A stretch of DNA of 37,771 nt from an uncultured Bacilli bacterium (GTDB lineage Bacteria; Bacillota_I; Bacilli_A; RF39; UBA660). This document shows positions 290-15,718 of this stretch, piece after piece (within the stretch, counting starts at the first letter, position 1; each line of letters opens with the position of its first letter). Below the pieces are notes generated by a model. It did not search any database, had not been told where the DNA came from, and saw nothing but the letters and a program-made list of their open reading frames with translations. The stretch covers positions 1 through 37,771 of the forward strand of contig CANRFG010000010.1 of the NCBI GenBank assembly GCA_947629815.1. The letters are read 5' to 3'. Made by a program: the position numbers and the translations under genes.

Positions 290-1240
290 TTAATTTTTGA
301 AATCATATCTAATTTTATTGATACCATTAAATTCAGTATCCCATTGATACGAATATGGGCTAATATTTTGAAATATTAACTTATCTCCTTTTTTTAATCT
401 TCTTGATTTAGTTTCTAAATAAATATCTGTTTCGCAACATGAGCAACCATAGAAAATAGTATCTACAAGTTCTTTTTTCTCTGATTCATGATATATAGGG
501 TAAGCCCATCTTTGGTTTGCCATTTTAGAAAAATTCAAAGTAACAGTTTGACTTATTTTATTATCCCTTACATCTATCACTTCACAAAATAATTTTCCAC
601 AATTTTTAAAAAGAAAATCACCTGCTTCAACAATAATATCAATATCTGTTGGTATAATGCTACGCATTTTTTTTAAATATTCAATACCACTTTTAAAACT
701 CAAATCCTCTAAATGTCCTCCAATATCAATACATTTTAAATTTGGAAAAGAAGATATAATTTTTTTTATTTCATCTAATATATCATTACATTTTTCACTA
801 TTTTTATGATCGGAATTATGCAAATGAATATAAGTCAACTCTTCTTTTACAGAATTACTTAGTATAGTATAATCTTCACCAAACCTGCTTTTATCAAACT
901 TTTCATTTCCATTTAAATTAATTCTTAATCCCTTACCTTTTAAATAAGAGCTCAAGTTATTTGCTACAATTTTTATATTTTTATAATTAATAGATTCTAA
1001 TTCATATGACATTGGACTGCTACAACTCAAAAAGTGTCCATTCAAATATTTTTTTATTATATTATACTCATTTATATTTGATATATCAAAACCATATTCA
1101 TATTTTGAAACAAGCTCTAAAATTTTCTCATTATTACAACACTTTACAGGAAAAATGAATTTAATATCTGGAACTTTAGTTATTAATTCTTTTAAATTCT
1201 GTTCAAATTTTTTTAAATCAAATTCTACATAAGCACTCAT
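290..1240 (-). CDS. Short alanine-racemase-fold PLP-dependent decarboxylase (carboxynorspermidine/diaminopimelate/ornithine decarboxylase-like)
   Basis: N-terminal PVKCC (PLP Lys), GLRINLN...KSRFGED, HLHNSD, IDIGGH, EAGDFLF and FYGCSCCETDIY match group IV decarboxylase landmarks. Confidence 0.7.
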   Translation of the reverse strand: MSAYVEFDLKKFEQNLKELITKVPDIKFIFPVKCCNNEKILELVSKYEYGFDISNINEYNIIKKYLNGHFLSCSSPMSYELESINYKNIKIVANNLSSYLKGKGLRINLNGNEKFDKSRFGEDYTILSNSVKEELTYIHLHNSDHKNSEKCNDILDEIKKIISSFPNLKCIDIGGHLEDLSFKSGIEYLKKMRSIIPTDIDIIVEAGDFLFKNCGKLFCEVIDVRDNKISQTVTLNFSKMANQRWAYPIYHESEKKELVDTIFYGCSCCETDIYLETKSRRLKKGDKLIFQNISPYSYQWDTEFNGINKIRYDFKN

Positions 1241-1244
1241 AAAG

Positions 1245-2090
1245 CTACTCCATATATTTTGCTACTTCTTTTTTCTCATCCTCACTATATGATAAATCTC
1301 TATGTTCATTATCATATATATCTATCCCATCTTTTAAATAAACATCATCTGTATTAATTACAATAGCGTCCTCTACATTATAACCTAACATTTCTACAGC
1401 TTCGTTTATTTCATCTGCTGTTGGGCCTTCAATTTCTACATATGGATTTAACATAGGCCATTTATCAATAACAATTTCTGTATTTTTATAATCATATGCA
1501 ATCCTCATCTTTATTTGATGTCTTGCAAAAAAGTACCCTAGATCCTCTAAAAATGCTTTCCCTGTTTCAATATCAGGAACATTAAACTCCAATTCTTCAA
1601 CAGCATCTAGTTCATATTCCCCTTTACTATCAACAATTTTTTTAATTGTAATAGTTGTTTCATCACCTGTTTGTCTTAATCTTATCCATTTGCTGAAATT
1701 ATCTTCCGTTTTTTTCATCAATTTTATTAATTTTTCAGATAGTAATTTATTATAATCACAATTGCTACTATTAATATAATCTAATATGTCATCACAGCCT
1801 AAAACATCATTTATAGTTTTAATATCTTCTTTATCAAAGCATGGTTTTATCTCTTTAATCAATTTTAAAAAGCCTCTATTATCATGATTATTTATCATTT
1901 CTTCAATATATTTCTTGTAAAAACCATCCACAGTTAATAAATCATATGTATAAACATCTTGTATATATTTTCCTTTTGGTTCTATTCCTTTTTCATGTAA
2001 TATGCTTTTAATTTTCATTACATCAACATTTAATAATTTAATTTCTCTTTCAATTTGTCCCATAATTATTTCCTCCTCTTTATATTTCAT
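1245..2090 (-). CDS. CYTH-domain protein (triphosphate tunnel metalloenzyme; class IV adenylate cyclase-like)
   Basis: N-terminal EREIKL (ExExK-type), WIRLRQTGDETTITIKK, VEELEF, IVIDKWPMLNPYVEIEGP. Confidence 0.75.
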   Translation of the reverse strand: MKYKEEEIIMGQIEREIKLLNVDVMKIKSILHEKGIEPKGKYIQDVYTYDLLTVDGFYKKYIEEMINNHDNRGFLKLIKEIKPCFDKEDIKTINDVLGCDDILDYINSSNCDYNKLLSEKLIKLMKKTEDNFSKWIRLRQTGDETTITIKKIVDSKGEYELDAVEELEFNVPDIETGKAFLEDLGYFFARHQIKMRIAYDYKNTEIVIDKWPMLNPYVEIEGPTADEINEAVEMLGYNVEDAIVINTDDVYLKDGIDIYDNEHRDLSYSEDEKKEVAKYME

Positions 2091-2236: not shown

Positions 2237-2605
2237 ATGAGCTTTGAAGAACTTTTAAAAATTGCAAAAAAATCATCAAAAGAAATAGCCCTAAATAGCA
2301 AATCATCATATGGTAAAGTAGCTGTTGCATGTATCACAAGCAAAAACAATATATATACCGGATTATGTTTAAAAACAACTTGTAATGTAGGTTTTTGTGC
2401 CGAGACAGCAGCTATTGCAAAAATGTTAGATAATAATGATACAAAAATAACAAAACTAGTAGCGGTTTGTAATGGCAATGAAATTATATCACCATGTGGA
2501 AAATGCCGAGAGCAAATCTACCAATTAAATCATGATAATTTAGATTGTGAGATACTATTATCTGATAAAATTGTAAAATTAAAAGAGTTGCTCCCAGAGA
2601 TTTAG
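2237..2605 (+). CDS. Cytidine deaminase-like / blasticidin-S deaminase-like zinc deaminase
   Basis: CAETAAIAKM and SPCGKCREQI zinc-binding motifs, C-terminal LKELLP; RBS GGAGG upstream. Confidence 0.82.
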   Translation: MSFEELLKIAKKSSKEIALNSKSSYGKVAVACITSKNNIYTGLCLKTTCNVGFCAETAAIAKMLDNNDTKITKLVAVCNGNEIISPCGKCREQIYQLNHDNLDCEILLSDKIVKLKELLPEI

Positions 2606-2608
2606 TTT

Positions 2609-3265
2609 TTATTTAATTACAAATATACGATATGGAAATGGTCTAAAATATTTTTTAAAATCAAATAGGATTTGATATTTTCTTAAAAAATGGCATGACT
2701 TTTCTTCAACAATTGTACCACCTGCTTTTTTTATTATATCTCTCCAAAATTTAATACTCTTAAATCTTTCGTCTCCATACATTGCTTCATCGTCGTTAAA
2801 ATATTTGGTCGGTATTCCAACAATAACAGTTTCTGCAATACATAATTGTTTTTTTATTGTTAAAATTATATCATTGTCAGAAAAATGTTCTAAAACTCCG
2901 TTACTGAATGAAACATCAAATTCTTTTTCTTTAAAATTAAGTTCTAAAATTGAATCTTGTTTAAATTTTGGTTTATTTTTTGCTCCATATTCTTTTGATA
3001 TTTTTTTTGACAATCCAAGTATTTCCTTATCAATATCTATTGCGATTACATCATAATCCAATGAGGCTAAATAAGTTGATAATATTCCAGTTCCACACCC
3101 TGATTCAATAATTTTTCTATTTGGGGAATATTTTTTTATCAAATTTATTAAATTTTTTTTTGTAATTATTTTATCATTTACATAATTTAACATTGTTCCT
3201 TTTTCATTAATTTCACTCAAATATATTTCATACCAAGATTTCTTTTTCACTTCAATCAACTCCAC
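2609..3265 (-). CDS. Class I SAM-dependent methyltransferase
   Basis: Motif I IIESGCGTGILSTYLA, VIAIDID, FDVSFSNGVLEHFSD. Confidence 0.8.
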   Translation of the reverse strand: MELIEVKKKSWYEIYLSEINEKGTMLNYVNDKIITKKNLINLIKKYSPNRKIIESGCGTGILSTYLASLDYDVIAIDIDKEILGLSKKISKEYGAKNKPKFKQDSILELNFKEKEFDVSFSNGVLEHFSDNDIILTIKKQLCIAETVIVGIPTKYFNDDEAMYGDERFKSIKFWRDIIKKAGGTIVEEKSCHFLRKYQILFDFKKYFRPFPYRIFVIK

Positions 3266-4037
3266 CTAAATATTTTTTTAGCGAATCATTTAATGCATTA
3301 CCAACAACTTTATCTTTTCCATTTTCAGTAATAACAATATCGGCATTTGCTAAAATTAATATATATTTTTTTTCCATATCTTTTTCTATTCTAGTATCGA
3401 TTTGTTTTATATTTGAATTACTTTTTATATATTTTATTATTGACTCATATTTATCCATATCTATATCGAATAAATCTTTATTTTTTTTTGCTAATTCTCT
3501 TAAAGGCATAAATTTAAAAATTCTCCAACTATGTATCCTATAATTATTTAAAAATTCAACCATTTCAGAAAAAGTATCAGCGTTATTTTTACATATAACA
3601 CTATTAATTCTAATTTTTACATTATAATCCTTGTATGTTATATAGTCTAATATATCCTTTATTTCAGCATAATGTTCCTTTCCTCTACCTAAACTATCAT
3701 TTATATCATTATTTACTGAATCAATAGATAAAGTTATACTATCAACATATTTATATATCTTATCAATTTTATCATGTGTTAATAATTTTCCATTAGTTAT
3801 TATATTATTTTTTATACCATATTCATAAGATTTTTCCAATAATTTTTCTATATCTTTTACTAAAAGTGCCTCTCCACCAGTCCATGTAATACTAGTTACT
3901 CCTGAATTCTTTAAATTTTCTAATATTATTATTTGTTCTTTTGTTGTTAAATCTTTGATATTTAAAAATCTATGGCAATACTTACATGCTTGGTTACATC
4001 CAGCTGTAATATTCCAACATATTTCTTTTTCAATCAT
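3252..4037 (-). CDS. Radical SAM protein, viperin/MoaA-like
   Basis: CNQACKYC (CxxxCxxC), WTGGEALL, ITNGKLL, LSIDS, LGRGKEHY, KIRINSVICKNN, WRIFKFMPL, KKYILILANADIVITENGK. Confidence 0.85.
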   Translation of the reverse strand: MIEKEICWNITAGCNQACKYCHRFLNIKDLTTKEQIIILENLKNSGVTSITWTGGEALLVKDIEKLLEKSYEYGIKNNIITNGKLLTHDKIDKIYKYVDSITLSIDSVNNDINDSLGRGKEHYAEIKDILDYITYKDYNVKIRINSVICKNNADTFSEMVEFLNNYRIHSWRIFKFMPLRELAKKNKDLFDIDMDKYESIIKYIKSNSNIKQIDTRIEKDMEKKYILILANADIVITENGKDKVVGNALNDSLKKYLGGVD

Positions 4038-4744
4038 TTTATTCTCCTTGCAAGTAAATAACCAAATCTATGAAAGTGATCTTTTGTGCAATCAACATGT
4101 GCCCCTTCAAATGATGGACTATGATTTTCTCTGAATGAAATAATTTCCCAATCTGAATTAAAATAATTTATTATCTCATTTTTTCTATAAAACTTTTCTC
4201 TTGGAAAATTTATTTCATCTTTTTCATCTATTGCCATCATATAATCAATATATAAATATCCATCTTTACTAACAATATCTTGTAACTTAATTGTCTTATC
4301 TTTTAATGAAAAATCCTTGTTCGCACTATAATGTAAAGAACAACTTGTAAAAACAACATTATATTTTTTATCAGGAACATTCCTATAAAAATCTCTTTTT
4401 TCAATTGTGGCATATTTAGTAAGGTTTTCTTTTTCTAATCGGTCAATAATTCCATAAACTCTTTTACTTTCTAATTTATAAATTTTAGAAACAAAATTGG
4501 GTTTATAATCATATTTTACCTTTTTATACACTATTGGAAAATCCTTATAACCACCATACAATGCAATATCATCAATATCATATCCTGTTACCTTAATTTT
4601 TTTTCTTGCAAATGGCATTAAAAATTTTCCATCTGAACACCCAACAATACATGCTGAAAAATTAGTTCCCCATTTTTCTTTTGCTAGATTTATCAATTTA
4701 TATAATCTGGTTGGTGGTTTCCCCCAAATACTTTTTGTCTTCAT
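4034..4744 (-). CDS. Probable class I SAM-dependent methyltransferase
   Basis: ACIVGCSDGKFLMPFARK...VTGYDID, YNVVFTSCSLHYS, DGYLYIDYM. Confidence 0.65.
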   Translation of the reverse strand: MKTKSIWGKPPTRLYKLINLAKEKWGTNFSACIVGCSDGKFLMPFARKKIKVTGYDIDDIALYGGYKDFPIVYKKVKYDYKPNFVSKIYKLESKRVYGIIDRLEKENLTKYATIEKRDFYRNVPDKKYNVVFTSCSLHYSANKDFSLKDKTIKLQDIVSKDGYLYIDYMMAIDEKDEINFPREKFYRKNEIINYFNSDWEIISFRENHSPSFEGAHVDCTKDHFHRFGYLLARRIK

Positions 4745-4745
4745 A

Positions 4746-6827
4746 TTATTCCTTTCCTTCTAAAATGTTACATTCATAGGAATTTTTCCAATATGAATAG
4801 TTTTTTAATCTGCTATAATAATTTTTTTGTTTAAAACATTCAATATATATATTTAAGTCGTTTATTGTCTCATTAGATACTACATATCTAAATTTTGTAG
4901 TTGATGCCAATTTTACTTTTGAATAATCATTTAAAATAGGTTCTTTATTAAGAATATATCTATAATCATCATTGCAATATATTTCAAAATCTAAATTTTT
5001 GTCTTCATTTTTTATCTCTTTTAATTTAGATTGATTATTAATGCAATTTTTACATCCAAATAAATGTCCAAAGCAATTTCTAGTATAAACTAAAGGTAAT
5101 CTACCTGCTATTATTGCTTGATTGCTAGTATCATTAAATATTAGTTTATTTCTCTCATATGATAATTCTGGTGATAATGTAAATTCTTCTATTCCATTAT
5201 CTATTAAATATTTTAATGATTTCTTATTCCATACATAAACGGTATAATCAATTAATTTTTTCTTGAATCTCATATTTTTGCATAAATAAATTTGTGAAAA
5301 TCTAGTAAACATAATTTCTTTATTTTCTAAAAATTTTAGATATTCACCTAACTTTTCACTTTTCCAGTTAAACAATGGTAATTTATAAATTATTCTATCA
5401 CTATATTTATCAACTATTTTTTTTATTTCTTTTAATTTTTTCACAGTCTCTATATCATATATTATCTTTATAAACGGATCATCAATAAATTCTTCTACAA
5501 CATTTTCCTTTTTTGTTTCTAAATACATTCTGCTAATTGACATATTACTAGATGAAATATCATTATTATTTGTTTTACAATCATTAATAATATAATTAAA
5601 TAATTCATTATATGTATTCTTATTAATAAATATTTTCTGAGGATTATGTCTTTTATACTTAATTTTATATATATTTATACTTGGATTTATTTTTTCAATA
5701 TTATAAATAAATTTATTTAAATCGAATTCTACTAGACTTTTTTCTTCACCATAAAATGTATTACCATCTCCTTTATAATTCATATACAGAATTTCTTGTA
5801 CTACATTTTTATCACTTATTTGTAAGTCTATACATAAATTCTTTTTATTTATAATATAAGGTTTTTTTAATTCGGTAAAAATATACATTACATTTTCATT
5901 CGTATAATCAGTAGAAAATTCAATAGGCTTATCATCTTTATATAATACGCAAATGTCATCATTATTAATATTTTCTAAATCCATTGCTTTCATAAATGGT
6001 TTAGTTCTTGAATTAATATCTTCATATAAACCATTATTTTTTATATTAACTCCAAATAAATATCCATTATTTTGTTTTGACCTTATTCCATTATTAATTT
6101 GGTTAAGAATTTGCTTAATTTCTTTGGGGTTTCTTCTTCTCCCCTCCAATTTTAGACAATCAATACCATCTAATTTACTTATCAAATTAATACAATCCAT
6201 ATCTGGAACATATAAGTAATTGCCCTTTTTATTATTAATTGAATAAATGTCTCGGCATGTAATAATACACTTACCTCTATTTCCACCTCCACCATTTATT
6301 AAAGTTCCAAAAAAACATAATCCTGAAAAACTTAGGCATTGTGAGCCCCATATAAAACACTCTGTCTCTATGTCAGTATTTTTTTTCATTTTATCCAATT
6401 CTTCTAATGTAAGCTCTCTTGATAGAATTGCTCTTTTACCATTTAATGTTTTTATAAATTCTATATCATCCAGATTATGAATTCCAAATTGTGTAGAAAA
6501 ATGTAATGGGACTTGTGGAAAATCTTTATAAAGTTCATTAATTAATCCAATATCTGTTACAATAAAAGCATCTGGTAATTTATTATTTTTTAAAAAATTT
6601 ATTACTTCAGAAATTTCTTCATCTAACATTAAAACATTTAATGTCAAATAAAATTTAATGCCATTTTTATGTAATTCATCAATTAAATAATTATATTCAT
6701 CTGTTGTGAAATTAATTGCTTTATTTCTGGCATTCCACTTCTTTAAACCACCATATACGGCGTTTGCCTTCTCATCAATAGCAACCTTTATATGTTCAAG
6801 ATTACTTGCTGGGCTTAATATTTCCAT
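4746..6827 (-). CDS. U32-family protein (collagenase-like 'peptidase U32'; putative Fe-S enzyme of RlhA/UbiU type)
   Basis: N-term MEILSPASNLEHIKVAIDEKANAVYGGL; ECFIWGSQCLSFSGLCFF...GNRGKCIITCRD; C-terminal SPEL...RLPLVYTRNCFGHLFGCKNC. Confidence 0.82.
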   Translation of the reverse strand: MEILSPASNLEHIKVAIDEKANAVYGGLKKWNARNKAINFTTDEYNYLIDELHKNGIKFYLTLNVLMLDEEISEVINFLKNNKLPDAFIVTDIGLINELYKDFPQVPLHFSTQFGIHNLDDIEFIKTLNGKRAILSRELTLEELDKMKKNTDIETECFIWGSQCLSFSGLCFFGTLINGGGGNRGKCIITCRDIYSINNKKGNYLYVPDMDCINLISKLDGIDCLKLEGRRRNPKEIKQILNQINNGIRSKQNNGYLFGVNIKNNGLYEDINSRTKPFMKAMDLENINNDDICVLYKDDKPIEFSTDYTNENVMYIFTELKKPYIINKKNLCIDLQISDKNVVQEILYMNYKGDGNTFYGEEKSLVEFDLNKFIYNIEKINPSINIYKIKYKRHNPQKIFINKNTYNELFNYIINDCKTNNNDISSSNMSISRMYLETKKENVVEEFIDDPFIKIIYDIETVKKLKEIKKIVDKYSDRIIYKLPLFNWKSEKLGEYLKFLENKEIMFTRFSQIYLCKNMRFKKKLIDYTVYVWNKKSLKYLIDNGIEEFTLSPELSYERNKLIFNDTSNQAIIAGRLPLVYTRNCFGHLFGCKNCINNQSKLKEIKNEDKNLDFEIYCNDDYRYILNKEPILNDYSKVKLASTTKFRYVVSNETINDLNIYIECFKQKNYYSRLKNYSYWKNSYECNILEGKE

Positions 6828-6837
6828 AATAATTCCT

Positions 6838-7380
6838 TTATTTTGTTTTTTTCAAAACTGGATCTTTATCTTGTGTTTGTTCTTCTTCTAGCTCGTTTTG
6901 CTTTGATTTAATTTCAATATTAAAAATATTATTTTGTACCTTGTAACTTGATTTTTCGCCGACTTTCTTATGGTAAATTGCTGCTCCAAGTGGGCTGTTG
7001 ATAGAGATTTCTCGAATTTCTTTTGAAAAATCTGGATTAGTACCAACAAGCTTAAATGTATTTGTCTCTGTATCATTTTCAGAAAAAATTGTTTCTACAA
7101 CTACTATGTCACCAATATCTACCAATTCTTCATCCCCAAAATTTTCTACAATTTCTATATTTTCTATTTTTTGCTTCATTTTTGCAATTTCTGCCATTAA
7201 AGTTCTTTCTTTTGCTTCTGTTTGATATAATGTTGGATTATCATGCCAATTATCACCTTGGTATATTGCATCTGTTCCTTTATACAACCTTACTGCAGAT
7301 AGTTCCTTCTCTTTCTTTTCTAATTCTTTTAAATAATCCTCATATCCTTTTTTATTTAATTTTAACTTTTCTTCATTCAT
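6838..7380 (-). CDS. GreA/GreB-family transcript cleavage factor-like protein
   Basis: Coiled-coil N-terminus with GDNWHDNPTLYQTEAKE tip; C-terminal VDIGDIVVVE...EISINSPLGAAIYHKKVGEKSSYKV (Gre C-domain). Confidence 0.72.
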   Translation of the reverse strand: MNEEKLKLNKKGYEDYLKELEKKEKELSAVRLYKGTDAIYQGDNWHDNPTLYQTEAKERTLMAEIAKMKQKIENIEIVENFGDEELVDIGDIVVVETIFSENDTETNTFKLVGTNPDFSKEIREISINSPLGAAIYHKKVGEKSSYKVQNNIFNIEIKSKQNELEEEQTQDKDPVLKKTK

Positions 7381-7450
7381 CTTAATTCCTTCTTTCTTTT
7401 TTATATAAATATATTAATATTATAACCTTTTAAAATTAAATTGTCTAAAT

Positions 7451-8056
7451 TTACTTTTTTATTAGTCTTTTATTATTTTGCTTTATTTCCAAGATTGTTG
7501 TATCAACTATTTTATTAACTTCATCTAAGCTCTTATCATCAGTATCTATAAGAACATATGGCAAATTAAATTTTTTTAAAAAGTAAATCATTTTATTATA
7601 ACCATCATCTAATTTATCCATATCATATAAATCCGGATCATTAGGATTTCTTTTTTTCATTCTATCAATTCTAGTTTCCGGCTTAGCGTAAAGCAATATT
7701 GTTAAATCTGGAACTCCAGAGCATTTTATTAATGCATCAAATATCGGTTCACTATCTAAATCTCCATTCCAATAATAGTTTGAAACTAAATGTCTATCAA
7801 TAACTACATCTTCATTTTTAAACATTCTAGCAGCATATATATTTCCTAAACTAAAATACCAAGATTTAATCATATTATCATTAATATCATACATTTTAGT
7901 TGCTACCTTCATTAAATCATTATATTGATTATCAGATCCATCTGAGTAAAAATAATGCAATGGTTTTTCTATAAATTTAAAATTAAATCTATCTCTTATA
8001 TGCTTTGACACTTCTGTTTTTCCTACTCCATCCATACCCTCAACTGCAATTATCAT
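7451..8056 (-). CDS. Thymidylate kinase-like (deoxy)nucleoside monophosphate kinase
   Basis: N-terminal IIAVEGMDGVGKTEVSKHI P-loop, VVIDRHLVSNYYW DR motif, LTILLYAKPETRIDRMKKR. Confidence 0.8.
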   Translation of the reverse strand: MIIAVEGMDGVGKTEVSKHIRDRFNFKFIEKPLHYFYSDGSDNQYNDLMKVATKMYDINDNMIKSWYFSLGNIYAARMFKNEDVVIDRHLVSNYYWNGDLDSEPIFDALIKCSGVPDLTILLYAKPETRIDRMKKRNPNDPDLYDMDKLDDGYNKMIYFLKKFNLPYVLIDTDDKSLDEVNKIVDTTILEIKQNNKRLIKK

Positions 8057-8062
8057 GTTATA

Positions 8063-8922
8063 TCACCCCTTTTTCAAATAGTATTTTATTCCCTCAGAAA
8101 CTCCTGAATGATTATTGTCATTTGTGGTAACATACCCTGCCAGTTATTTCACATCAAAAATACCATTATTCATACAAACACAATTTCTAAACATTTTAAA
8201 CATATTTATATCATTTTCTCCATCACCTATTACTAGTACTTCATCTAACGGAATTTGTAATTTCTCTGCCAAATCATGTATTCCAATCGCCTTTGTATTA
8301 TTATGTTTTCCTATTTCTATATAGTTAATTGTTTTATTTAAAATGTATTCATATAAATTAGTATTATATTCAGTAATGAATAAATTATATTTCTCTAATA
8401 TGTTTTTTAAACTTTTTAAATGATTTTCAAGACTATTTTCTGAAACAATTACAATTTTAGTAAATGTATTACAATTTATATATTCTTCTAGATTTTTAAT
8501 TAAATAGCAATTATTTTTCAAATCATCACTATAATTTTCATTTAGTAAATGGTGCTTTAAATTGAAATAATTCATTTCTTCTGAAACTTCGCAAAATTCT
8601 TGATTTAAATGTATGTATAAATTGTTAGCTTTACAATAATTATAAATTTCTAAAACTGCTTCTATTTTTAAAAAAGAAATTTTTAATGATATATTATTTT
8701 TTATATCTAATGACTGCCATTACTAAATATCCCATAGTCACAGTTTATTTGATTACTAATATATTTTGTCGAAGAAAATTCTCTTGCTGTTGCCAAAACA
8801 ATCTTAATATTTTTTAATTTTGCAAGTTTAATTGCATCAATGTTTTCTAATGTAATTGTATTATCATCACTCAATAGCGTGCCACCTATGTCAATTGCAA
8901 TTAATGATATTTTAGATTCCAT
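8063..8922 (-). pseudogene. Degenerate Cof/HAD-family phosphatase
   Basis: N-terminal fragment (8707-8922) continues after a frameshift near 8713 into an open frame reaching GDGENDINM, then an in-frame TAA after IFDVK followed in frame by LAGYVTTNDNNHSGVSEGIKYYLKKG*. Confidence 0.8.
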
Positions 8923-9029
8923 TTATATTTTTCCTTTCCTGATAAATATTTTATCATAAATTGCTTAATTTCAAATTATATTATATTCATATATTTATAA
9001 CTTTTGGTTATATATTATAATAAAAAAAA

Positions 9030-9917
9030 TTATTTTTTTATATAATTTTTTATAAAAAATCTTGCGAGGTTACTTAAATAGTCATCAAAATATAGCAAAT
9101 TTAATTCAAGTCTTGGTAAATTATACTGTGTTCTAAGTTCACTTAAATCACCATTTTTTAATTCTTTTTCAACTGCTTTTTTTACTACATATCCTGATCC
9201 TATACCTTTTTTTACAGAACTTATTATTAAGTCAGTTGTTTCAACCTCCAATATTACATTAAGTTTTATATTATACTTTTCAAGTTCTTTTTCTAAATTT
9301 TTTCTTATTGAACTTCTTTCGTATGGCATTATGTATTTATGAGATGCAAATTCATAATTCTTATTTTGAGCAGAAGTTATTAAACATGTTTCAAAAGAAG
9401 TTAAAGGTTCACATTTCATTTCATTGTTTACAATTGTTATCGGGGAACTATCAATTATAAAGTCAATTTTATGCTCCTCCAAATTTTTTATTAATTCGCT
9501 TGTACTACCATTTATAATTCTAAAAAGTACATTTGGATGGTCATCCCTATATTCTTCTATAAACTTTAAAAGATAAAATGAAGCAATATGTGCAGGAGCA
9601 CCGATTATAATTAATCCCTTATCCATATTCTTATTATCTTTTATTACTTTTTCTCCTGCAAGTAAATAATTATATGATTTATCAATATATTTTAATAACT
9701 CCTTACCATCATTGGTTAATACTAATCCATTTGAATTTCTATAAAACAATTTTGTATCTAGTAATTCTTCCAATTTTTTTATTTGCTTACTTATTGCAGG
9801 TTGTGAAATACATAATCGACTAGATGCTTCGACAAATGATTTTGATTTAGAGCAAATATAAAAAATTCTATATAAGTTTAGATTTATATCTGAAATCATA
9901 TTATCACCTCTTATCAA
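9030..9917 (-). CDS. LysR-family transcriptional regulator
   Basis: N-terminal HTH NLYRIFYICSKSKSFVEASSRLCISQPAISKQIKKLEELLDTKLFYR plus substrate-binding-like C-domain. Confidence 0.92.
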   Translation of the reverse strand: MIRGDNMISDINLNLYRIFYICSKSKSFVEASSRLCISQPAISKQIKKLEELLDTKLFYRNSNGLVLTNDGKELLKYIDKSYNYLLAGEKVIKDNKNMDKGLIIIGAPAHIASFYLLKFIEEYRDDHPNVLFRIINGSTSELIKNLEEHKIDFIIDSSPITIVNNEMKCEPLTSFETCLITSAQNKNYEFASHKYIMPYERSSIRKNLEKELEKYNIKLNVILEVETTDLIISSVKKGIGSGYVVKKAVEKELKNGDLSELRTQYNLPRLELNLLYFDDYLSNLARFFIKNYIKK

Positions 9918-10010
9918 ATTATTTTATAATTATTAGTTATAATAGTCAAGCACTATATAACTTTATTCGTTCATAAGTTTTCTTAAATTCATAAATAAAT
10001 TATAGAAATA

Positions 10011-10511
10011 TTATTTATACTCTCTATAAATTATATTTTCTATTTTATCATTGAAAATAGAATCATTATCATATATCTTTTCTTTTAAGTAATCGAGATT
10101 AATTTTAATATCATTTAATTCATTTATAGGTATCCATTCAAATGTAGATTTTCCATCATTTTCTTCATCCAACGAATTATATTTTACATTTTTATCATAT
10201 CCATATTTGGATTCATCTATATTAGTTATATAGTAAAAACCTATTTCATGATAATTCGATTTTGGGAATTTAATAAAACTTTCACAAATATATTTTAATT
10301 TTAAGTCTTCTTTAATACCTAATTCTTCTTCAAGTTCTCTTTCAATAGCGGTTTTAGTATCTTCATTAATTTCTAATCTTCCTCCCGGAAACATATAAAA
10401 ATCATATTTTTCTTGTTTCTGTAAAAAAATCTTACTAAAATCTTTATTAAATATAATTGCACCAACTCTAACTCCAAATCTCAAATTTTCATTTTTTATA
10501 GTTATTATCAT
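10011..10511 (-). CDS. NUDIX hydrolase
   Basis: Nudix box GGRLEINEDTKTAIERELEEELGI. Confidence 0.9.
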   Translation of the reverse strand: MIITIKNENLRFGVRVGAIIFNKDFSKIFLQKQEKYDFYMFPGGRLEINEDTKTAIERELEEELGIKEDLKLKYICESFIKFPKSNYHEIGFYYITNIDESKYGYDKNVKYNSLDEENDGKSTFEWIPINELNDIKINLDYLKEKIYDNDSIFNDKIENIIYREYK

Positions 10512-10571
10512 AGAATTACCTCCTAATAAATTTTTTCATAATTGACTAATTTTTATTGATGGCTAATAATA

Positions 10572-11060
10572 CTAATTATCTAAAAAATCTAAGCAATATT
10601 TATAAAATTCTTCATGACTTTTTGAAAATTTTCCTTGATTAATTAAATTTTCTATTTCATCTCTTGTTACCCAATCAACACTATCAACTTCTTCTTTTTG
10701 AATGACAATATCTTTTAAATCAATATCTTTCTTCATATAATATAAATCAACAAAGTCATCATTAGTTTTAATTGTTTTAAATAATGTTAACTCATTTTGT
10801 TTAACAATTTGACCTAACTCTTCCTGTATTTCTGTAACTATTCCTTCTAAACTACTTTCTCCTGATTTTGGATGTCCTCCTGTTGTTGCCCATTTTCCAT
10901 CTTTTTCTAAAACTCGTTTTTGTAAAAGAAATTTACCATCAGAATTCTCAATAAATACTACTACAGTAATATAATATCTTCCACTTGGTACATTTTCACC
11001 TTTTCTAATAGTTTCATTTGTCAAAATTTTTTTTGAATTATATAAATCTCTTAATTCCAT
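10572..11060 (-). CDS. NUDIX hydrolase
   Basis: Nudix box GGHPKSGESSLEGIVTEIQEELGQ. Confidence 0.9.
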   Translation of the reverse strand: MELRDLYNSKKILTNETIRKGENVPSGRYYITVVVFIENSDGKFLLQKRVLEKDGKWATTGGHPKSGESSLEGIVTEIQEELGQIVKQNELTLFKTIKTNDDFVDLYYMKKDIDLKDIVIQKEEVDSVDWVTRDEIENLINQGKFSKSHEEFYKYCLDFLDN

Positions 11061-11236
11061 AATTTATTCTCCTTTCTTAATAAGATATTAAAATTATTAT
11101 AATTTATATTAATTAAATATCATTCAAATCTATAATATAACTGCTACTATAACCTGTTTTAGTTTTATAATTTTTTAATAATTTTAATCATATGTAATTT
11201 TAGGAAATTCATGCTCAACAAAATACATTTTTAAAT

Positions 11237-11926
11237 TCACTTTTGTTCCTTAGGTTCGAACGTTAAAACATTTCCAAATTTTTCTAATTTATTTGATTTT
11301 CTATTATATATCATAGCGCCATCATCAAAAATTGCATAAACATTTTTCTTTTTTTCATTTGCCACATCTTGAAGTTTTTTTAAATACTTTCTATTTTTTG
11401 TTGAATGTACATCAAAATAAAAAGGGTCATTTAATATTCCAATACCATCATAAAAAGCAAAATATTTATAAAAATTATTTTTAGCAGTTATAAAATATCT
11501 CTTTAATTGTAATTCAGCGCCTGCACTAAACCCTATAATTATCCCTTTATAATATTTTAGCGTATATAGTATTTCAGTTTCTTGAGTTATTTTACTATAT
11601 AACATTTCAGGATTACCTCCGGTAATAATTATAATATTACTCTCATCAATAATTTTCTTAAAATTAGGAATACTTTTTTTATCATAACAATTTAATATAG
11701 AAATATTACTTTCTTCTATTCCCAATTCTAACAAAGAACCAACATATTTATTATATCTTCTACCATTTATTTCGAACCATTCCTCGTTAAATTTTTTATA
11801 GTCAAGTTCTGTTGGAAATGCCCATGAAATAATAACTGCCTTATAATTTTTCTTGACAATTTTTTTTAACTTATCATTTACTAATTTCATTCCTTTTTCA
11901 TATTCACTTAATAACACACTATACAT
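11237..11926 (-). CDS. Peptidase E-like (S51) family protein
   Basis: IIITGGNPEMLY and IIGFSAGAELQL nucleophile elbow; overall length and layout of S51 proteins. Confidence 0.72.
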   Translation of the reverse strand: MYSVLLSEYEKGMKLVNDKLKKIVKKNYKAVIISWAFPTELDYKKFNEEWFEINGRRYNKYVGSLLELGIEESNISILNCYDKKSIPNFKKIIDESNIIIITGGNPEMLYSKITQETEILYTLKYYKGIIIGFSAGAELQLKRYFITAKNNFYKYFAFYDGIGILNDPFYFDVHSTKNRKYLKKLQDVANEKKKNVYAIFDDGAMIYNRKSNKLEKFGNVLTFEPKEQK

Positions 11927-11960
11927 TTTTTCACCTCTAAAAATGAATACTTATGTAAAA

Positions 11961-13433
11961 TTATCCATTATTAAATTCCTTTATCTTCTTCTTTGCATAA
12001 CTTGTATGTGCTTTTTCAATCCAATCTTCTCTTGGCCCAAAAGACAACTCATCTGTTATGATTCTAACTCTATCTTTATTTTTCAAAACATAATCTATTG
12101 GAGCATATTCATCATTAATAAATACCCCTATCATTTTATTTCCTATATTACTATCTATCTTATAAGCAAAATCAATTGGAGTAGAACCTTTTGGTAATTC
12201 AATTATATCTCCTTTTGTAGTATATACATATACTTTATCAGAAAACAATTCATTTTTAACTTGATTTACAAATTGTTGATTATCTCCAAACATTGAATCC
12301 ATTTCTACTAAAGATTCGAAAAATTGATATTTAGTTTTTAAAGCTTCTTGCATGCTTTCCCTTGCATTATCCTTATTTATATTCCAATAAGCTGTAAGTC
12401 CAAAAGAAGCTACCATATCCATATCAAAAGTTCTTATTTGAGTTTGTACCAATCTATCATCAGGTCCAAAAACAGTAGTATGAAGACTTCTATACATATT
12501 AGTTTTAGGATTACATATATAATCCTTAAATTTATTATTTATTGGATGATATTGTTTATGTATTATACCTAAAGTTATATAACAATTATCTATTTCATCT
12601 ACCATAATCTTTAATGAATGTAAATCATGTATATCAGATATTTTATGTCCTTCATTTAATCTTTTATATATTCCATATATATTTTTTGTTCTTATTTTAA
12701 TTTCATTTGGAATATTTTTATTGGTTAACAAATATTGAATTTTTAAAAGCATTTCATTTAAACACTTACTACTTTCTTCTTCAATAATCATTTTTACTTC
12801 TTCAATTGCTTTATATTTTTCTGGTTTTAAATATTTTAAAGATAAATCTTCTAATTCACTTTTTATTCTATAAGCACCTATATAATAAGCAAGCGGAACA
12901 AAAATTTCCATAGTTTCAATAGAATTTTCCTTTTGTTTAAATTCACTTTTAAATTGTAATGTTCTCATATTATGTAATCTATCTGCAAGTTTTATTATTA
13001 TTATTCTAACATCTTCTGTAATTCCTGTAATTATTTTCCTTGTATTTGCTAAATTTTGCTCCTCCTTTGTTGAAAAATTCATTTTTGATAATTTTGTAAC
13101 ACCATCTACTAAATTTGCAATACTTTGATTAAAATCGTGCGCAATATCTTCTTTAGTTATATTTGTATCTTCCAAAGTATCATGTAAAAGTCCTGCACAA
13201 ATAGTATCACAATCTGCATGTAACTCTGTTAATATATATGCAACATTAAGTGGATGAATTATATATGGTTCTCCACTTTGTCTAATTTGACCTTCGTGAA
13301 GTATATTTGCATATTCATATGCTTTTTTTATAATATTTATTTCATCGATGTTATATTTATCAAGTTTTGTTACTAAATTTTCTATAGTTATATTATTAAT
13401 AAATACCACCTCACTACAAAAAAAGACAAACAT
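11961..13433 (-). CDS. RelA/SpoT homolog (HD hydrolase - synthetase - TGS), lacking C-terminal ACT region
   Basis: HDTLEDT HD motif, KFKDYICNPKTNMYRSLHTTVFGP, QTQIRT, TGS VYVYTTKGDIIELPKGSTPIDFAYKI. The ORF-track ATG at 13433 lacks an SD; possible ATT start at 13400. Confidence 0.9.
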   Translation of the reverse strand: MFVFFCSEVVFINNITIENLVTKLDKYNIDEINIIKKAYEYANILHEGQIRQSGEPYIIHPLNVAYILTELHADCDTICAGLLHDTLEDTNITKEDIAHDFNQSIANLVDGVTKLSKMNFSTKEEQNLANTRKIITGITEDVRIIIIKLADRLHNMRTLQFKSEFKQKENSIETMEIFVPLAYYIGAYRIKSELEDLSLKYLKPEKYKAIEEVKMIIEEESSKCLNEMLLKIQYLLTNKNIPNEIKIRTKNIYGIYKRLNEGHKISDIHDLHSLKIMVDEIDNCYITLGIIHKQYHPINNKFKDYICNPKTNMYRSLHTTVFGPDDRLVQTQIRTFDMDMVASFGLTAYWNINKDNARESMQEALKTKYQFFESLVEMDSMFGDNQQFVNQVKNELFSDKVYVYTTKGDIIELPKGSTPIDFAYKIDSNIGNKMIGVFINDEYAPIDYVLKNKDRVRIITDELSFGPREDWIEKAHTSYAKKKIKEFNNG

Positions 13434-13638
13434 AAAAAGTTTTACATCTGTCTTACTTTATTAAAGTTTTTACAAAACAAAAATTAAATTCAACATATTT
13501 TAAAATAAACAAATTATGTTCCATAAAAACCACTCCCTCAACAATGATTAAATGTATTATAATCTTGATTTATATAAAAGTCAATATATTTAATTATTAG
13601 TTATTGCATTAGAAGAAAATTTATGATATATTATACAA

Positions 13639-14208
13639 GTGTTTTTTGAAGGAGAAGAAGTAAACATGAAAGAAAAAACAACTTTATTAGACCAAGCTGG
13701 TTATAATGAACTTATAAAAAATATTGAGGCTACAAAGCAAGAATTAAATAGGATTCGTCTAGAACGTAATGAGGCACTACAAAATAGTGATAGACAAGGT
13801 TGGGGTTCAACCGACTTACAAGATATTACAAGAAAAGAAGAAATACTTTTATCTGCGCTAAGACGCAAAATGGAAATTTTAGACAATTTTGAGATTATCG
13901 AAAAGCATAATAAAGATGGCATAGTTGATATTGGTGATACCATATGTACAGAATTAATCTATCAAGGTGAAGAACATGAAAGCTTAACTTTCAAATTAGT
14001 AGCATCTGAAGCTCGTTTTGACTCTGAAATAAAAGAAATTTCTATAAATAGTCCTCTTGGTAATTCAGTATTTGGAAAATATATTGGCGAAGAAACATCA
14101 TACTCTGTTAATGGAATGAATGTTTTGGTTTTAATAAAAGAAAAACTTGAAATAGAAAATGAACAAGTTTTTACAAAAAGTTTAAGTATTAGAAAAACTA
14201 TTGAATAA
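13639..14208 (+). CDS. GreA/GreB-family-like protein (second paralog); likely start ATG at 13666
   Basis: N-terminal coiled coil plus VDIGDTICTE...EISINSPLGNSVFGKYIGEETSYSV, same C-domain signature as 6838-7380; SD GGAG before ATG 13666. Confidence 0.68.
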   Translation: MFFEGEEVNMKEKTTLLDQAGYNELIKNIEATKQELNRIRLERNEALQNSDRQGWGSTDLQDITRKEEILLSALRRKMEILDNFEIIEKHNKDGIVDIGDTICTELIYQGEEHESLTFKLVASEARFDSEIKEISINSPLGNSVFGKYIGEETSYSVNGMNVLVLIKEKLEIENEQVFTKSLSIRKTIE

Positions 14209-14216
14209 TAGTTTTT
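14193..14216 (+). terminator. Intrinsic terminator of Gre-like gene
   Basis: AAAAACTATT-GAAT-AATAGTTTTT followed by ATTTTTTTA. Confidence 0.75.
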
Positions 14217-15183
14217 ATTTTTTTACTAAAATTAGACCATCTTTATATTTTGTATCACAATTTCTTATACCTGTAGGTACTAATACAACTTGTGAATCTA
14301 CTAAATCACTATACTTAACTACTGAATTAAAAAATAAATAAGAATTTCTTTTTATTTTAAGTTCACAATTGAATACATATGAAAGCGCAAGTAAAGAATC
14401 TTCTTTTAATAAATTTTTTAAATTATCAATTAATTGTTGTAAATAATTATAATCCCAATTTTCACCATATGAAAGATATAAATAATCGATAATATTCGAT
14501 AAAAATATAAAATCATATTTACAATTAAAGTTGCTTGATAAATCAAACAAATCAACATTTTTAAAAGTAATATTTGATTTTAATAAATTATTTTTTAAAA
14601 TATTATAGTCTTCCTTTGTTAATAAATAATTATTATTTAATTTATATCTATTATAATTTCCATTTGATGAAGTTAACATATTTATTAAATTAGCTGGATA
14701 TAAAATTCCTTTTTGTTGTCTATAATTATAATCAATTACTTCTTTCCAATATTTTCTATATTTTTCTTCCATAAATGGTAATAAATCATATAAAAGTTGT
14801 GAGATTTCTTCTAGTGAAATTATATTTTCATCATTTCCAATTATTTTATTCATAAATGTTTCAAAATCTTTATAATCATATTTTAATATAGTTGCTACTC
14901 TAAATCCAAAAACATAATATTCTGTCAATGAATTTATATCAAAAGTATCTATTTTATTAATACCATTATGAATTAAATTAAAAGCATGGTCCCCACTAGA
15001 TAATACTGTTAGTGCATTATCTTTTTGTTTAAAATCAATGTGTTGCATATATTCATTTATATTTTCATTTGTTAAAAAATAAAATTTTTGATAATTTTTA
15101 TTAAAAGAGGGATTAATATATATTTTCCCATGAAAAAGTTGTAAATCTATCATTCTTTTAGTTTCAGTTAAAGCTTCTTCCAT
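14215..15183 (-). CDS. DUF3419/BtaA-like SAM-dependent protein
   Basis: ALTVLSSGDHAFNLIHNGINKIDTFDINSLTEYYVFGFRVATIL; later YDFIFLSNIIDYL. Confidence 0.55.
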   Translation of the reverse strand: MEEALTETKRMIDLQLFHGKIYINPSFNKNYQKFYFLTNENINEYMQHIDFKQKDNALTVLSSGDHAFNLIHNGINKIDTFDINSLTEYYVFGFRVATILKYDYKDFETFMNKIIGNDENIISLEEISQLLYDLLPFMEEKYRKYWKEVIDYNYRQQKGILYPANLINMLTSSNGNYNRYKLNNNYLLTKEDYNILKNNLLKSNITFKNVDLFDLSSNFNCKYDFIFLSNIIDYLYLSYGENWDYNYLQQLIDNLKNLLKEDSLLALSYVFNCELKIKRNSYLFFNSVVKYSDLVDSQVVLVPTGIRNCDTKYKDGLILVKK

Positions 15184-15195
15184 AATATTATAACC

Positions 15196-15480
15196 TTAAT
15201 TAATTTCCTTTATTAATTCTTGAATTAATTGTAATCCAATTTTTTTATCTTCTATATCTTTTATATCTATTAATTTTATTTTATCATTAATTTTTTCATA
15301 AAGAGAATAATATATATTTAATTGTTTTTTTTCATTTAATTTACCATCAGTATAAACTATAAAATCTTTATTAGTATCATCATCGTGATATGTAGCAATT
15401 ACTTCACAAATTATTTTATTTCCTTGTTTATCTATTATTTCAAATTGCATTCTTTTCATTATATCAATCCTATTTTTCAA
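15196..15480 (-). CDS. DUF1292-like protein
   Basis: FEIIDKQGNKIICEVIATYHDDDTNKDFIVYTDG. Confidence 0.65.
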   Translation of the reverse strand: MKNRIDIMKRMQFEIIDKQGNKIICEVIATYHDDDTNKDFIVYTDGKLNEKKQLNIYYSLYEKINDKIKLIDIKDIEDKKIGLQLIQELIKEIN

Positions 15481-15718
15481 TAATTAAAATTTTGTTAGCT
15501 TGTTTTTCTTCCATTTTTGCTTGGTGTTCACTAGCAGTTACACCAAACCATGATGCTTTTTTCTCAAATATATCGTAAAAAGGACAAGGTTGTTTAGTAT
15601 GGTCTATACTCTCATCATAAACAACTGCTACAATTCCAGCTATACCATACATAGCTAGTAAAGATGCCCCACAAAATGCAATAACATTGTTTTTATTTAT
15701 TTTTTTATTATTTTTCAT
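15470..15718 (-). CDS. Small membrane-anchored hypothetical protein
   Basis: Single N-terminal TM segment NVIAFCGASLLAMYGIAGIVAVVY; overlaps next gene by 11 nt. Confidence 0.5.
   Translation of the reverse strand: MKNNKKINKNNVIAFCGASLLAMYGIAGIVAVVYDESIDHTKQPCPFYDIFEKKASWFGVTASEHQAKMEEKQANKILIIEK

Follow-up and report, generated by a model that had tools for sequence, protein, structure and literature searches.

A conserved gene cluster of viperin-like radical SAM, U32 and Gre-like proteins as a candidate pathway to a modified nucleotide

What might a nucleoside monophosphate (NMP) kinase, a Gre-like protein, a U32 protein, a radical S-adenosylmethionine (SAM) enzyme resembling viperins and two methyltransferases accomplish together when their genes are packed into one minus-strand run? 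The question is raised by a locus on contig CANRFG010000010.1 (C10) of assembly GCA_947629815.1, a 1.14 Mb draft genome (G000) of a small gut-type bacterium whose relatives are uncultured Bacilli; the window referred to here is that whole contig, 37,771 nucleotides in length. We assigned the window proteins to families by Pfam, NCBIfam and PADLOC profile searches and compared the locus with those of other genomes. The genes form one functional set, linked far beyond chance, and we regard it as a real possibility, if short of probable, that they constitute a horizontally spread cassette which makes a modified nucleotide and carries its own RNA polymerase rescue factor.

The original prediction described six co-directional open reading frames (ORFs), and the ORF listing matched their coordinates and spacing exactly, with gaps of 70, 10 and 1 nt followed by overlaps of 4 and 14 nt. 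Profile searches also bore out the families it had named (thymidylate-kinase/dNK-like, Gre C-terminal, U32, methyltransferases, and radical SAM with viperin as the best family). Its six-gene operon holds as far as it goes but was drawn too short: CYTH, LysR and HAD genes belong to it as well, and the second methyltransferase, MT2, is found only in some relatives. CYTH is counted as a core member because it is present with the same genes in the loci of other genomes; a cytidine-deaminase-like gene and a decarboxylase gene also belong, in the window and one relative. The genes are as follows.

7451 to 8056, minus strand: NMP kinase (NMPK), thymidylate-kinase/dNK-like, with the P-loop GMDGVGKT, the DRH motif and the lid Arg residues kept
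6838 to 7380, minus strand: Gre-like protein with a Gre C-terminal domain and a coiled-coil tip reading GDNWHDN instead of GDLSEN
4746 to 6827, minus strand: two-barrel U32 protein with CX6CX15CX3C and E156 in barrel 1 and a further conserved Cys set
4034 to 4744, minus strand: MT1, a class I SAM methyltransferase with a weak class I family match and a TehB/OvoM-like fold, the best marker of the cluster
3252 to 4037, minus strand: viperin-like radical SAM protein (rSAM) with CxxxCxxC, prokaryotic viperin being its best family; apparent sister clade of the viperins
2609 to 3265, minus strand: MT2, a second SAM methyltransferase by family match, with a GTG start
2237 to 2605, plus strand: cytidine-deaminase-like gene by family match, shared only with genome G178
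1245 to 2063, minus strand: CYTH protein with ExExK and the triphosphate-tunnel residues kept; its ORF could start at 2090
290 to 1240, minus strand: pyridoxal phosphate (PLP) decarboxylase-like gene, related by family match to Orn/DAP/carboxynorspermidine decarboxylases, shared only with G178
8066 to 8930, minus strand: Cof-type HAD phosphatase, intact in relatives and broken in the window by a frame change near 8710 and a stop at 8144
9030 to 9917, minus strand: LysR-type regulator, in the same position in other Bacilli clusters

A comparison of gene neighborhoods had been proposed with the original prediction and, when run, found the set well beyond this one genome. NMPK, Gre-like, two-barrel U32, MT1 and rSAM genes recur jointly in three classes, Bacilli, Clostridia and Alphaproteobacteria; most loci are little rearranged, protein identities are 30-75% and the order is nearly constant. 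In the Bacilli loci compared (L024/L032, L025/L034, L031, L033, L035 and L123) the order is Gre, LysR, HAD, NMPK, U32, MT1, rSAM, MT2 (in most loci) and CYTH, and some loci add MBL and Gre genes after NMPK, a DAHP synthase after U32 or a second radical SAM gene after rSAM; HAD was not matched in L031. The Clostridia locus L038 reads NMPK, Gre, CYTH, LysR, U32, MT1, rSAM, second radical SAM. Among the Alphaproteobacteria, L039 has NMPK, U32, MT1 and rSAM as one fused ORF (8001-9491), CYTH, a methyltransferase gene and Gre, and L040 has NMPK, U32, MT1, rSAM, CYTH, MBL, Gre and an APH-like kinase; L041, which ends inside U32 at the contig end, and L082, where no MBL match was found, resemble L040. 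The second radical SAM gene is of the SPASM type and directly follows the viperin-like one (L035 9481-10395, L123 15639-16526, L038 from 8403). Pairwise protein distances across loci correlate among NMPK, U32, MT1 and rSAM (r 0.77-0.98), with r = 0.98 for MT1 against rSAM. This near-constant order at such identities in three classes, together with the correlated distances, places the linkage far beyond chance.

Membership varies at the edges. MT2 is restricted to the Bacilli loci and a variant locus, L128, and the MBL gene is missing from the window and from half of the loci. The cytidine-deaminase-like and PLP decarboxylase genes are common only to the window and G178 (L024/L032), whose CYTH subtype has 31-34% identity to the other Bacilli CYTH proteins, compared with 56-67% among those others; this block therefore looks exchanged. 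A reduced form in L036 (188-8136) and L037 comprises a GFO/IDH/MocA oxidoreductase, U32, NUDIX and MT1 without rSAM; after it, L036 has AbiEi/AbiEii plus a restriction-like gene. The variant L128 (G148, 8028-12813) contains two Gre-like genes with the WHDN tip, NMPK, the branched-polyamine synthase BpsA, AdoMet decarboxylase, CYTH and MT2; it lacks U32, MT1 and rSAM, and AdoMet decarboxylase and the branched-polyamine synthase stand in their place. Its composition suggests that kinase, CYTH and Gre form a shared chassis on which tailoring enzymes can be swapped.

The set is distributed sporadically. Within the window's order, three of the 193 genomes searched have MT1 proper, and G1138 is a further carrier; the counts for three other orders are 3/201, 1/43 and 1/297. 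rSAM and MT1 co-occur in the same three of 201 alphaproteobacterial genomes, a coincidence with a probability by chance of about 7e-7. Searches of two other genomes of the genus did not show the cluster (U32 returned paralogs only; MT1 was searched in G001). As read from their sequences, genes of recombinase or conjugation type are found close to L024, L031 and L035, and L040 has one of integrase type nearby; horizontal spread of the set, though putative, is the natural reading. Carriage by phages or viruses was rejected: neither phage records nor viral contigs yielded a match to MT1, viral contigs yielded none to rSAM, and U32 matches among phage records were weak and partial. Distant MT1 homologs of the same family (25-37% identity) adjoin ordinary genes such as ftsW, mraY, dnaK and replication genes and were set aside as a separate subfamily.

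Viperins are known to produce chain-terminating nucleotides with a single enzyme, plus a kinase. All nine rSAM members of the clusters match the prokaryotic viperin family, which is the sole near family of the window rSAM, the next best reaching 89 bits. The predicted structure (pLDDT 91) has viperins as its top PDB matches, including CTP- and UTP-bound forms (TM 0.79-0.87), and C14, C18 and C21 of the CxxxCxxC motif are invariant in the alignment. The viperin motifs KINS and W/YK(I/V) read mostly (R/K/T)IN(S/T/V) and (W/V)R(I/L)F in the cluster proteins. In a tree with long branches and few rows, the cluster rSAM proteins fall outside the clade of mouse viperin and the prokaryotic viperins (pVips), with 99/97 support, and PADLOC reported only partial pVip-like and VakA-like matches in the window.

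The kinase matches the PADLOC profile of the viperin-associated kinase VakA (E 2e-11), exceeds the Pfam Thymidylate_kin cut-off (50.6 bits against 27) and falls below that of the dTMP kinase family TIGR00041 (39.3 bits against 83). CYTH is closest to the triphosphate tunnel enzymes; its E5, E7, R128, R130, K141, E157, E159, E210 and E212 are invariant, and K9 is Lys or Arg. MT1 folds like the small-molecule methyltransferases TehB and OvoM, which argues weakly against an RNA substrate. A distant MT1 homolog (23% identity) on a plasmid of Streptomyces sp. NBC_01591 (L042, around 10967-15490) adjoins genes that read as thymidylate-synthase-like, B12-type radical SAM and HAD, possibly a nucleoside biosynthesis cluster.

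Every rSAM carrier examined has Gre-like proteins beyond its housekeeping GreA. The window protein passes the cut-off for the Gre C-terminal domain (37.4 bits against 26.9) and lies below that for curated GreA (51.4 against 145). One ordinary GreA was present in each of the 14 genomes examined, with the GDLSEN tip in all those aligned, and the rSAM-cluster genomes have one or two extra Gre-like proteins, on the cluster contig and in or beside the cluster. No extra Gre was found in the cluster-free genomes G001 and G002, nor in G570 and G571, which have U32-NUDIX-MT1 without rSAM. WHDN (as GDxWHDN) is invariant in the extra copies except the window's second one (13639-14208, plus strand), which adjoins a RelA/SpoT gene and has the degenerate tip RQGW-GSTDL. 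Two WHDN-Gre genes that stand without the cluster have as immediate neighbor a Ham1/ITPase gene (L120 1877-3034) and a NUDIX gene (L129 8397-9378), respectively, which we count in favor of the pathway proposed below. Two precedents bear on such a factor: GreA relieves the arrest of RNA polymerase caused by a single incorporated oxazinomycin, a nucleoside antibiotic (PMC6821320), and a viral exonuclease removes ddhC, the viperin product, from RNA (PMC9415739).

The U32 protein far exceeds the PF01136 cut-off (142 bits against 22.4). Its C164, C171, C187 and C191 form the motif CX6CX15CX3C, invariant and located in barrel 1; CX6CX15CX3/4C is widespread among U32 proteins (PMC6747719). By spacing, Glu156, Cys164 and Cys171 match the Glu and Cys residues established as essential in TrhP (PMC6599085). 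Four further Cys residues (C585, C592, C595 and C618), conserved as a set, lie near the C-terminus, so the protein likely holds two Fe-S clusters. TrhP (NF011996) is the best match, at 138 bits and far under the cut-off of 534.

Both TrhP and RlhA require prephenate. A search for chorismate synthase in ten genomes, of which nine are carriers, found none, and the same search found it in 14 of 14 controls, so prephenate, which the known RNA-acting U32 enzymes need, is not expected in the carriers tested, and prephenate-dependent RNA hydroxylation of the TrhP kind is unlikely. Three Bacilli clusters have a DAHP synthase between U32 and MT1 (L035 7199-8011, L024 7830-8690 and L034 7031-7785), of which the L035 protein is over the family cut-off and the L034 copy is split into two ORFs; chorismate synthase was not found in the genomes of these three clusters. 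Two explanations offer themselves: prephenate is replaced by an unusual metabolite, or the DAHP synthase performs different chemistry in these clusters. Contigs C3 and C12 of G000 encode further U32 proteins, probably of RlhA and TrhP type, although chorismate synthase was not found in that genome.

Of the three functions that the original prediction had offered for these genes, production of a modified nucleotide is the best supported, since the kinase, the viperin fold, the CYTH tunnel enzyme and the Gre-like protein all relate to nucleotides or RNA polymerase. In the pathway we propose, the kinase would phosphorylate an NMP towards the triphosphate, the viperin-like rSAM would use radical chemistry to alter its ribose, the two-barrel U32 might carry out a hydroxylation or another oxidation independently of O2, MT1 (with MT2 where present) would methylate the small molecule, and CYTH could trim or rearrange the triphosphate. 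Once in RNA, the product may halt or slow transcription by RNA polymerase; the Gre-like protein specific to the cluster would then free the host enzyme by cleaving off the blocked 3’ end, a form of self-protection. We consider this interpretation the most economical.

Several observations weigh against this pathway. The window rSAM scores 133.1 bits on the prokaryotic viperin model NF038283, under its 180-bit cut-off, where true prokaryotic viperins of the same phylum reach 215-231; two motifs carry Arg in place of the viperin Lys, and the protein has a shorter C-terminus, so the reaction may differ. For these reasons, and for its separation in the tree, we call the protein viperin-like rather than viperin. 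Distances for CYTH correlate with those of the other cluster proteins at r 0.40-0.55 only. The U32 enzymes whose function is established have RNA or quinones as substrates rather than free nucleotides. Genes for a Gre-like protein with the WHDN tip also occur without the cluster, in about 15 of the 241 genomes of the order, so WHDN-Gre is not exclusive to the cluster and was rejected as such a marker. No transporter, exporter or killing component was recognized in any cluster. The product, finally, is one we infer, as are the chemistry, the order of steps, the activity of the Gre-like protein and the target of the product.

The same genes could serve other ends. As a sub-case of the proposed pathway, the cluster may be an elaborated pVip relative whose nucleotide blocks phage RNA polymerase while the Gre-like protein spares the host. 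The viperin fold with an NMP kinase neighbor, as in known prokaryotic viperins, the sporadic distribution across phyla, the recombinase and conjugation-type genes by several loci and the missing exporter agree with this, as do the AbiE and restriction-like genes beside the U32-MT1 pair of L036; but that locus has no rSAM, most loci have no other adjacent defense gene, the LysR regulator suggests metabolic control, and the score stays under the prokaryotic viperin cut-off, leaving an anti-phage role unlikely though well worth considering. A released nucleoside-type antimicrobial or signaling product, with NMPK, CYTH, Gre and MT2 as chassis and U32, MT1 and rSAM as a swappable tailoring block, is comparably unlikely. 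It would account for L128, which keeps NMPK, CYTH, MT2 and two WHDN-Gre genes around AdoMet decarboxylase and the branched-polyamine synthase, for the presence, in a genome without the shikimate pathway, of a cluster DAHP synthase above its cut-off, for the MBL, NUDIX, HAD and second radical SAM add-ons, and for an MT1 fold resembling natural-product and small-molecule methyltransferases; yet no export gene was recognized in any cluster, and the Streptomyces gene group, which would also fit, is linked to MT1 by 23% identity. The AbiE genes beside L036 and the missing exporter together make us lean slightly to an intracellular role for the product.

An improbable alternative is a nucleotide alarmone, in which a modified or cyclized nucleotide acts on RNA polymerase with the Gre-like secondary-channel protein, comparable to ppGpp with DksA. 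CYTH has class IV adenylate cyclases as well as triphosphate tunnel enzymes among its relatives, in several loci the MBL protein is similar to cyclic-nucleotide phosphodiesterases, RNase Z and Apyc1, and the Gre tip is altered rather than lost; however, the tailoring enzymes are too many for a messenger, and the MBL gene is not a constant member. Stepwise modification of tRNA or rRNA, with U32 hydroxylating and rSAM and the methyltransferases elaborating the base, was another option of the original prediction; it is not supported and appears quite improbable: TrhP is the best U32 match and its essential Glu and Cys are kept, but the score is far below the TrhP cut-off, the genome already has other U32 proteins, MT1 has a small-molecule-type fold, prephenate is not expected in the tested carriers, and such a pathway would have no use for the kinase, CYTH and Gre. 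That the genes are chance neighbors with unrelated roles is scarcely credible; each comes from a large family, but linkage in three classes and two phyla, the identical phyletic pattern of rSAM and MT1, the correlated distances and a gene fusion refute it.

We return to the proposed modified-nucleotide cassette. No description of the gene set was found in the open-license literature, the only kind searched. The part families are already known; what appears new is how they are combined, along with the sister clade to the viperins and the Gre paralogs dedicated to the cluster, and there is a realistic chance that the cluster is a new kind of system. A more specific claim, that it is a new conflict or antibiotic system in which viperin-like and U32 chemistry makes a transcription-poisoning nucleotide and a specialized Gre selectively rescues the producer's RNA polymerase, is rather doubtful. 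If the cassette works as proposed, viperin-type chemistry, joined to an O2-independent U32 enzyme, methyltransferases, the triphosphate enzyme CYTH and a Gre paralog of its own, would extend to more complex nucleotides and would offer a testable answer to how a producer shields its own RNA polymerase. It would also be a natural case of U32 and DAHP synthase enzymes working in genomes without the shikimate pathway.

Among known systems, the prokaryotic viperins (pVip/SAND) share the viperin fold, CxxxCxxC, the GRG region, an NMP kinase neighbor and sporadic spread with the cluster, whose rSAM differs in lying under the NF038283 cut-off and in an apparently separate clade, in its Lys-to-Arg changes and shorter C-terminus, and in being always accompanied by U32, MT1, CYTH and Gre-like genes. 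Like TrhP, RlhA and UbiU-UbiV, the cluster U32 has PF01136, CX6CX15CX3C and the essential TrhP Glu and Cys positions, whereas it forms its own subfamily with a second Cys-bearing barrel, lacks a prephenate source and is linked to nucleotide enzymes. The cluster CYTH has the ExExK motif and the conserved Arg, Lys and Glu tunnel residues of the CYTH/triphosphate tunnel metalloenzymes and class IV adenylate cyclase, but most members have an insert of about 80 residues and the protein scores below the cyaB cut-off. GreA and GreB have the same Gre C-terminal domain and coiled-coil length; the cluster proteins have GDxWHDN for GDLSEN, fall under the GreA cut-offs and are additional to the housekeeping GreA. 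Nucleoside-antibiotic gene clusters show a similar mix of radical SAM, methyltransferase, HAD, kinase and deaminase genes, and the present cluster differs from them in having no exporter and a gene set that matches none in the literature searched.

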